Under the pieces are notes generated by a model that had not been told where the DNA came from, searched no databases, and worked only from the letters and a program-made list of their open reading frames with translations. This document shows, piece after piece, positions 37,472 to 38,617 of a stretch of DNA of 52,794 nucleotides (its first letter is position 1; each line of letters begins with the position of its first letter). Made by a program: the position numbers and the translations under genes. Source of the DNA: Bernardetiaceae bacterium (lineage in GTDB: Bacteria; Bacteroidota; Bacteroidia; Cytophagales; Bernardetiaceae); NCBI GenBank assembly GCA_020832465.1, contig JAFIER010000115.1, positions 1-52,794 on the forward strand, written 5' to 3'.

Positions 37472-37512
37472 GTAAAAAAAAAGTCTTAGAATAATGTTTA
37501 TTCCAAGACTTT
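37472..37512 (-). terminator. Rho-independent terminator after cas6
   Basis: The stem AAGTCTTAGAATAA/TTATTCCAAGACTT (one mismatch), followed on the minus strand by nine T, about 100 bp past the cas6 stop. It isolates cas6 from the 437-residue gene. The rest of 37247-37612 is AT-rich with nothing recognised. Confidence 0.85.
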
Positions 37513-37612
37513 CTTACTTGTAATACCATCTCTAAACAAACGTTTGAGAAATGATTCTATTGTTTGCATACGCATTTTTTTATCAATTTAGAAATGCTAT
37601 GGAATGTCGTAT

Positions 37613-38617
37613 TTAATTACCCGCTTGTCCGTTACCGCTTTCTGAGCCATTTGTGAGCGCACGCCCACTGCCTGTTCTTGCTTCTTGTGCTGTAATGACT
37701 TGCTTTTGAGGTATTTGTTCTTTTTGCTCTTGCTTATTTTCTTTTTGCGTCATTGTTTTTTCAAAAGCATCGAGCCTATCTTCGACTTGCTTCATGCGAT
37801 TATTTACGGTTTTCTCTTCTTGTGTTTGCTGTTGTTGAAAACCTGTATATACCTCGGTGCGCTGTGTAGGGTCGCTATGTGCAAGATCTAACATACCAAA
37901 GCCTTGTGCTGTAAACTCACCCAAGCCATTTTTGAAAATAAACTGCTGGACTTTAGGGTGCGCATAAAGTATAAAAGGAAATGTATAACCGCGCACTTCT
38001 TGCGCTTGCTTGTTATGCTTTACTTCATAAATACGTGCAAATTTTTTGTCTTCTTGTTGGACACGCTCTAAGTATCTCCTATCAGGGATCAGTTGAAACT
38101 TATAGAAGGAAGAAATGTCTTCTGGCGTATAAAAACCAGAGCGTTCCATGCGATTCATGGTAGATTCATAAAGCAAGTCCGAAAACTTGTCAATATTTGG
38201 CATAATAAACTCTTTGGGATCGCGACGCAAATGTAAGCCTGCAATCACCATAGGGGATATGCATATAAACTTATTTACCTCTTGCAAATCAGGCATTTTT
38301 TCCATTTCTACAGATTCAGGCTCGAGCTCTAGGTCGCCCAAACGAACTGCATCTTGTGAAAAGATTTTCATTAAAAGAAAATCTATCATTTTTTTGTTAT
38401 GACAAGAAAATACAAGTGTTACGCGACGAGAACAAAAGTGTAAACCCTTACGGCTCACCCTTGTCTGACCTTTTAAGCCCGAAAAATTGTATAAACCTGA
38501 CTCCCCCACCTCAGAGTTAGCGACTAAACTATCGATATACTCAGAAAAAATCTGTTGGTGATAAAAGGGAAGTACTGCCCCGCGATTTCTCAATACAAAA
38601 ATTACTCTTACTCTCAC
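37613..38617 (-). CDS. cas6: Stand-alone Cas6-like CRISPR RNA endonuclease with C-terminal tail
   Basis: A 334-residue protein; residues 1-250 are Cas6-like (two RAMP/ferredoxin-like folds). Visible landmarks are MRVRVIFVLRN with LPFYHQQ (His20), GLKGQ (47-51), RKGLHFCSRRVTLVFS (56-71), the FICISPMVI strand (117-125), ESTMNRMERSGFY (151-163), RGYTFPFILYA (209-219) and the glycine loop GLGEFTAQGFGMLDL (231-245). Cas6 cleaves hairpin repeats in pre-crRNA. His20 and Lys49 are candidate active-site residues; I cannot confirm the full catalytic set. Residues 250-334 are an added Q/K/E-rich tail ending NGSESGNGQAGN, absent from usual ~240-residue Cas6. No other cas gene and no CRISPR array is in the window. 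Confidence 0.85.
   Translation of the reverse strand: MRVRVIFVLRNRGAVLPFYHQQIFSEYIDSLVANSEVGESGLYNFSGLKGQTRVSRKGLHFCSRRVTLVFSCHNKKMIDFLLMKIFSQDAVRLGDLELEPESVEMEKMPDLQEVNKFICISPMVIAGLHLRRDPKEFIMPNIDKFSDLLYESTMNRMERSGFYTPEDISSFYKFQLIPDRRYLERVQQEDKKFARIYEVKHNKQAQEVRGYTFPFILYAHPKVQQFIFKNGLGEFTAQGFGMLDLAHSDPTQRTEVYTGFQQQQTQEEKTVNNRMKQVEDRLDAFEKTMTQKENKQEQKEQIPQKQVITAQEARTGSGRALTNGSESGNGQAGN

Follow-up and report, generated by a model that had tools for sequence, protein, structure and literature searches.

A Cas6-family protein of a Bernardetiaceae bacterium belongs to an inherited Bacteroidia family that probably works outside CRISPR

The closest known kind of protein to the one studied here is represented by the non-catalytic Pyrococcus paralogs PfuCas6nc (3UFC) and PH0350 (3QJJ, 3QJL, 3QJP), which gave its best sequence and structure matches and which likewise combine the Cas6 fold with the loss of the catalytic residues. 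Differently from our protein, to which they are about 21% identical, both are archaeal and come from hosts that presumably carry CRISPR; to our knowledge, no link with ychF has been described for either. The PDB title of 3QJJ is that of a RAMP protein binding different RNA substrates. In PMC3652601, 3UFC was termed non-catalytic, the catalysis of PfuCas6 was ascribed to Tyr31, His46 and Lys52, and SsoCas6 (Sso1437), which is likewise a Cas6 without the catalytic His, was reported to cut nevertheless, its crRNA recognition and chaperone-like activity being stressed. According to PMC3727216, Cas6 active sites differ among subfamilies and no catalytic residue is universal. Solo Cas4, as described in PMC5704561, is also a Cas-family gene found outside CRISPR-cas loci; however, it belongs to an endonuclease family that is carried on mobile elements too, whereas no relative of our family turned up when viral contigs were scanned. 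In the literature searched, which was mostly open access with preprints outside its scope, no account of this Cas6-like family was found, including under YchF with Cas6 and under Cas6 with Cytophagales.

The window, that is, the whole stretch of 52,794 nucleotides analysed, encodes one member of this family, with the following features:

37613..38617, minus strand: Cas6-family gene, member of a ychF-linked Cas6-like family, 334 aa, GTG start (from the open reading frame, profiles and orthologs)
37886..37927, minus strand: glycine-rich loop, residues 231-244 (GLGEFTAQGFGMLD), from the alignment of 115 proteins

The GTG start was accepted because the orthologs open with the same MRVR/MRIR motif. 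The product scored 63.9 bits with TIGR01877 (cut-off 58.65) and 63.3 bits with PF01881 (cut-off 23), and matched the PADLOC Cas6b profile (E 3e-26) and the sequence of PDB entry 3ufc (E 3e-8). TIGR01877 was also matched by all 27 members of set A1 at E <= 0.001. Membership of PF10040 was considered and dropped, for a search of the host genome gave no match to that profile, and the gene was assigned to PF01881. The AlphaFold2 model had a mean pLDDT of 85 and a tandem ferredoxin-like RAMP fold as in Cas6. It aligned with solved Cas6 structures over 214-227 residues, with Z scores of 25.2 for 3ufc, 25.0 for 5yi6, 25.0 for 3qjj and 24.4 for 3i4h in a second comparison over the 1000 chains ranked highest by Foldseek, whose own top ranks were 3qjj, 3ufc and 5yi6. 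The C-terminal glycine loop of Cas6 was present, and G231, G233, G239 and G241 were invariant in 115/115 family members. The product of 37613-38617 is therefore almost certainly a genuine member of the Cas6 family. The preliminary description had read a Cas6 plan and a glycine loop from the sequence; the former was borne out by TIGR01877 and PF01881 above their cut-offs, Cas6b, 3ufc and the predicted fold, the latter proved to be residues 231-244, and the profile search that it had named as a possible refutation did return Cas6. The profiles TIGR01877 and PF01881, the double RAMP fold and the glycine loop are common to the catalytic Cas6 and Cas6b proteins (PfuCas6, 3I4H; the type I-B Cas6 on contig C175 of the same genome), from which the window protein differs in having no Tyr31/His46/Lys52, no adjoining array or cas operon, and the inheritance of a core gene.

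We consider this gene to represent, in the window, an ancient Bacteroidia family of Cas6 fold that has descended vertically, works outside CRISPR, binds RNA and is perhaps linked to translation, with a probability of roughly 0.6. As an inherited core gene of many Bacteroidota, without the usual cutting residues and often placed beside a translation gene, it probably handles the cell's own RNA and does not serve CRISPR immunity.

The distribution of the family was determined at several taxonomic depths. With the protein as query, matches were obtained in all 11 genomes of the GTDB family of the host. In the order sample, searched with the C-terminal 251 residues, 183 of 390 genomes matched and 176 were kept after removal of 7 weak matches (E 1.8e-5 to 7e-4). 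A single-sequence scan of genome contigs found no relative, whereas an alignment-based scan of GTDB found them, 397 of 408 pattern-matching stretches encoding one; named relatives include Bernardetia, Thermoflexibacter, Fulvivirga, Belliella, Algoriphagus and Sporocytophaga. The 41 matches among 395 genomes sampled class-wide consisted of 9 from the same order, 18 from other orders at 176-253 bits with the family profile, with which no CRISPR-type Cas6 exceeded 82.5 bits, and 14 weak ones. In the phylum sample 46/296 genomes matched, and scores above 82 bits were found only in 8 genomes of the same order. One of the other-order matches (L171, G604:C40:1720-2472) had two in-frame stops and no open reading frame; either the copy is broken or the assembly is wrong there. 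In the trees, the family was separated from CRISPR Cas6 with moderate support, 0.79 for 64 versus 6 sequences (FastTree) and 0.57 with 4 CRISPR sequences.

The lineages were then compared over 147 of the 149 Cas1-positive genomes of the order, those of families f6 and f16 being left out. The gene was present in every such genome of f19 (30/30), f1 (7/7), f15 (7/7), f22 (6/6), f20 (5/5), f4 (4/4) and f8 (4/4), in most of f18 (8/9), f14 (10/12) and f3 (7/9), and in none of f10 (0/36) and f12 (0/18). The presence of the Cas6-like gene thus tracks lineage, not Cas1.

YchF is a ribosome-associated ATPase, and its gene lay directly upstream of the cas6-like gene in 66 of 80 named loci, which were the best 80 of the 397 relatives and are not independent, several genera recurring among them. 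In these loci ychF usually follows a PUR-like (DUF3276) gene and an AI-2E-type transporter, the three genes being named from their sequences. Among 31 loci chosen across families, the pair was found in 10/20 loci outside f1, the family of the window species, and in 0/11 within it. Outside the order, ychF was directly upstream in 5/16 intact loci, from families f43, f60, f81 and f96. The only ychF of the host genome, supported as such by PF06071, is on contig C154 and has no adjoining cas6. Around the window copy, no conserved operon was found and, the gene itself aside, no neighbouring open reading frame matched near the f1 relatives. The pairing can be dispensed with, for the gene is parted from ychF throughout f1, the window species included. 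The distances of the Cas6-like protein and YchF were correlated (r 0.83, n=77; r 0.77, n=71 when limited to the order and cleared of duplicates), none of 999 permutations equalled the correlation in either set, and the Cas6-like protein diverged about 2.3 times faster than YchF; this correlation fits vertical descent.

Where ychF and the cas6-like gene are about 100 nt apart, an alignment judged by eye showed, in many of the loci (L089-L153), a promoter-like TACTTTTG directly 3' of the ychF stop, which makes co-transcription doubtful, and many of the same gaps carried a conserved A/T-rich leader ahead of the GTG start. That the linkage has no functional meaning and a core RNA-binding protein merely keeps its ancestral position has a chance only a little short of even, as the promoter-like TACTTTTG and the retention of the gene in f1 after the loss of the linkage fit it, whereas the pair was kept at low protein identity in five families beyond the near relatives of the order sample, four of them outside the order. 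A link of the family to translation is put forward only as a tentative suggestion.

The residues of the Cas6 active site were located by aligning 115 ychF-family proteins with 4 CRISPR-linked Cas6 and a PfuCas6 fragment, which placed two further features:

38465..38560, minus strand: residues 20-51, covering the first hairpin and the beginning of helix 1, the region of PfuCas6 Tyr31/His46/Lys52, with the triad missing and invariant H20, S46 and K49 instead
38033..38047, minus strand: basic patch KKFAR, residues 191-195, with K191 and R195 in 115/115 and K192 in 112/115 members

Across the 115 family members, the equivalent of Tyr31 was present in none, that of His46 in none (a gap column in all) and that of Lys52 in 6, and the window protein had none of the three. 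In the 4 CRISPR-linked Cas6, Tyr and His were found in 4/4 and Lys in 3/4, with Arg once. The structural and residue check suggested by the preliminary description thus returned the fold of Cas6 but not its PfuCas6 triad, in the manner of PfuCas6nc and PH0350, and the family protein is probably not a nuclease of the Pfu type. Loss of the triad is no proof of inactivity, because SsoCas6 cuts without its His (PMC3652601); SsoCas6 acts on crRNA in a CRISPR-bearing archaeon and keeps Lys51, whose counterpart is unconserved in the window family. The family has invariant residues of its own: H20, S46, K191, R195, Y211, D179 and Y182 were found in 115/115 members, as was K49, where the CRISPR-linked set has M, Q or Y. 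R4 and R209 were present in 99/99 members within the order and R2 in 113/115 overall.

It is unlikely that the protein cuts cellular RNA as a CRISPR-independent endoribonuclease whose active site has moved, for example to H20, S46 and K49 or to the 191-195 patch. The invariance of H20, S46, K49, K191, R195 and Y211 would suit such a site, as would the variation of active sites among Cas6 subfamilies (PMC3727216); but the H20 position corresponds to His22 of PfuCas6, which is outside the triad, and is Tyr in 2/4 CRISPR-linked Cas6.

The CRISPR systems of the host genome were surveyed. Contig C175 (G000:C175, locus L013) carried an array, a WYL gene, a type I-B cas6-cas8b-cas7b-cas5b-cas3b operon and, behind cas3, an AbiEi gene. 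The 30-nt repeat of this array occurred in 42 copies in three arrays, on contigs C61, C175 and C240. A PF01881 search of the assembly gave exactly two Cas6 genes, the window gene and the I-B cas6, whose product carries the canonical residues; only the latter stands beside a CRISPR array or cas operon. Despite the I-B operon and the three arrays, no Cas1 was found in the host assembly. On contig C72 (L186:736-12226) lay a III-A Csm operon that includes a gene for a CARF-PDDEXK protein; no cas6 was found among its scanned genes. Between its csm4 and csm5 were a 752-aa gene matching defence profiles of NsnB/AriA/GajA type and a 371-aa gene for which PADLOC gave no match. On contig C25, a Cmr1 gene had an adjoining Cas10 match.

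Carriers of the gene were also compared with other genomes of the order for their CRISPR content. Cas1 was matched in 90/176 carriers versus 59/214 non-carriers (odds ratio 2.7, p 2e-6), a comparison that ignores relatedness while the lineages differ strongly, and was missing in 86/176 carriers. Of these 86, 80 were tested for Cas3 (TIGR01587) and Cas10 (PF22335). TIGR01587 responded in 80/80 genomes, which was attributed to generic helicases, so that only matches above the cut-off were counted. Cas3 was then found in G000, the host, and G312, and Cas10 in G000, G004, G113 and G318; 75/80 had none of Cas1, Cas3 and Cas10, the three markers that the count covers. A simple array finder run on 188 locus sequences (2.09 Mb) returned only the I-B array of L013 and one odd repeat. 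The latter, a short repeat in three copies (L055:4545-4757; L079 is the same locus), lay near an orphan cas6 of a Bernardetiaceae MAG. These results suggested that the main role of the family is very likely independent of CRISPR.

With arrays and cas operons elsewhere in the host genome, a trans role is possible in this strain. That the protein processes pre-crRNA in trans for those arrays or type III complexes is nevertheless rather improbable: three arrays of one repeat, a III-A operon without a cas6 seen in it, a Cas10 match beside Cmr1, the commoner Cas1 in carriers and the activity of His-less SsoCas6 (PMC3652601) speak for it, while the I-B operon has a second, canonical Cas6, Cas3 and Cas10 are missing in 75/80 tested Cas1-negative carriers, and the gene is present in 0/54 Cas1-positive genomes of f10 and f12, tracking lineage. 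The preliminary description had allowed that the gene might serve arrays elsewhere and proposed searching the genome for them. Arrays and the I-B and III-A operons were indeed found, and the III-A operon keeps that idea alive, but it is weakened by the I-B operon's own canonical cas6 and the 75/80 result. The same description had named a complete cas operon with its own cas6, together with decay of the window gene, as grounds for abandoning it; the I-B interference operon supplied the former, whereas the family dN/dS spoke against the latter.

The surroundings of the window gene were as the preliminary description had stated. No CRISPR-like array was found in the 52,794-nt window and no cas gene among the five scanned genes flanking the Cas6-like gene, so that the absence of a nearby array and the CRISPR-unrelated neighbours were both confirmed, and its claim of an own terminator agreed with a hairpin behind the gene:

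37477..37515, minus strand: terminator-like hairpin and T run 3' of the Cas6-like gene, -18.1 kcal/mol, z -5.5

Over 119 close pairs of relatives (protein identity above 85%, dS 0.05-1.5), which are phylogenetically non-independent and to which the window sequence does not belong, dN/dS had a median of 0.043 and a highest value of 0.066; the median indicated strong purifying selection and a family that is not decaying. That the gene is a stray or decaying cas6 left over from a lost CRISPR locus, as the missing array and cas genes nearby might suggest, is hardly credible against this dN/dS, the 11/11 family genomes and the deep synteny with ychF, and decay was rejected for the family on dN/dS and distribution.

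The window protein differs from its relatives at the C-terminus:

37616..37870, minus strand: species-specific C-terminal tail, residues 250-334, with a predicted helix up to about residue 300 and predicted disorder beyond it

The Q/K-rich tail of 85 residues in the preliminary description was accurate (85 aa, Q+K = 26%). The stretch after D244 measured 90 residues in the window protein, compared to 51 in the next longest and a median of 24 among the 115. The tail was absent from all 114 aligned relatives, and a species-specific tail cannot explain the family. The tail had been taken as a pointer to a binding partner or a new role; a new role is likely, but the tail is not the clue to it. It is probably a recent species-specific extension, predicted to be largely helical, and may serve self-association. 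The real clue is the tail-less core, an ancient inherited gene retained without CRISPR.

A family of palindromic hairpins, TAACA[T/G]TTCT-N4-AGAA[A/C]TGTTA, in which stem changes preserve pairing, was observed in the same genome:

2839, 6189, 6328, 7851, 9226, 11526, 13743, 20655, 27009, 28176, 28611, 32745, 38990, 39090, 41627, 45571 and 46390: the 17 hairpin copies in the window

All 17 copies were intergenic, though called open reading frames fill 80% of the window, and two lay upstream of the Cas6-like gene. About 890 copies were counted in the host genome, versus 0-4 in each of ten other genomes of the family. A link of the hairpins to the Cas6-like protein is speculation.

If the family indeed works outside CRISPR, as we prefer, its Cas6 cleft would bind a specific cellular RNA through basic and aromatic residues peculiar to the family, R2, R4, K49, K191, K192, R195, R209 and Y211. 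The protein would then act as an RNA-binding, chaperone or sequestering factor, not as a cutter of pre-crRNA, and the link with ychF suggests that its site of action might be translation or ribosome-linked RNA metabolism. In a bolder version, which we regard as doubtful, this core protein of Bacteroidia would cooperate with YchF as a translation-linked RNA chaperone or maturase, being either a Cas protein turned to housekeeping or the descendant of a pre-CRISPR ancestor, the tailed window lineage perhaps also targeting the roughly 890 hairpins.

Automatic annotation by TIGR01877 would give members of this family, of which a single GTDB scan showed 397 coding stretches, the name CRISPR-associated endoribonuclease Cas6 across hundreds of species, and counts of orphan cas genes would be inflated in this way. 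If our reading is true, these bacteria possess a protein of Cas6 fold that has a standing role in the cell, and Cas6-like RNA recognition outside immunity and the direction of Cas6 evolution would become testable.
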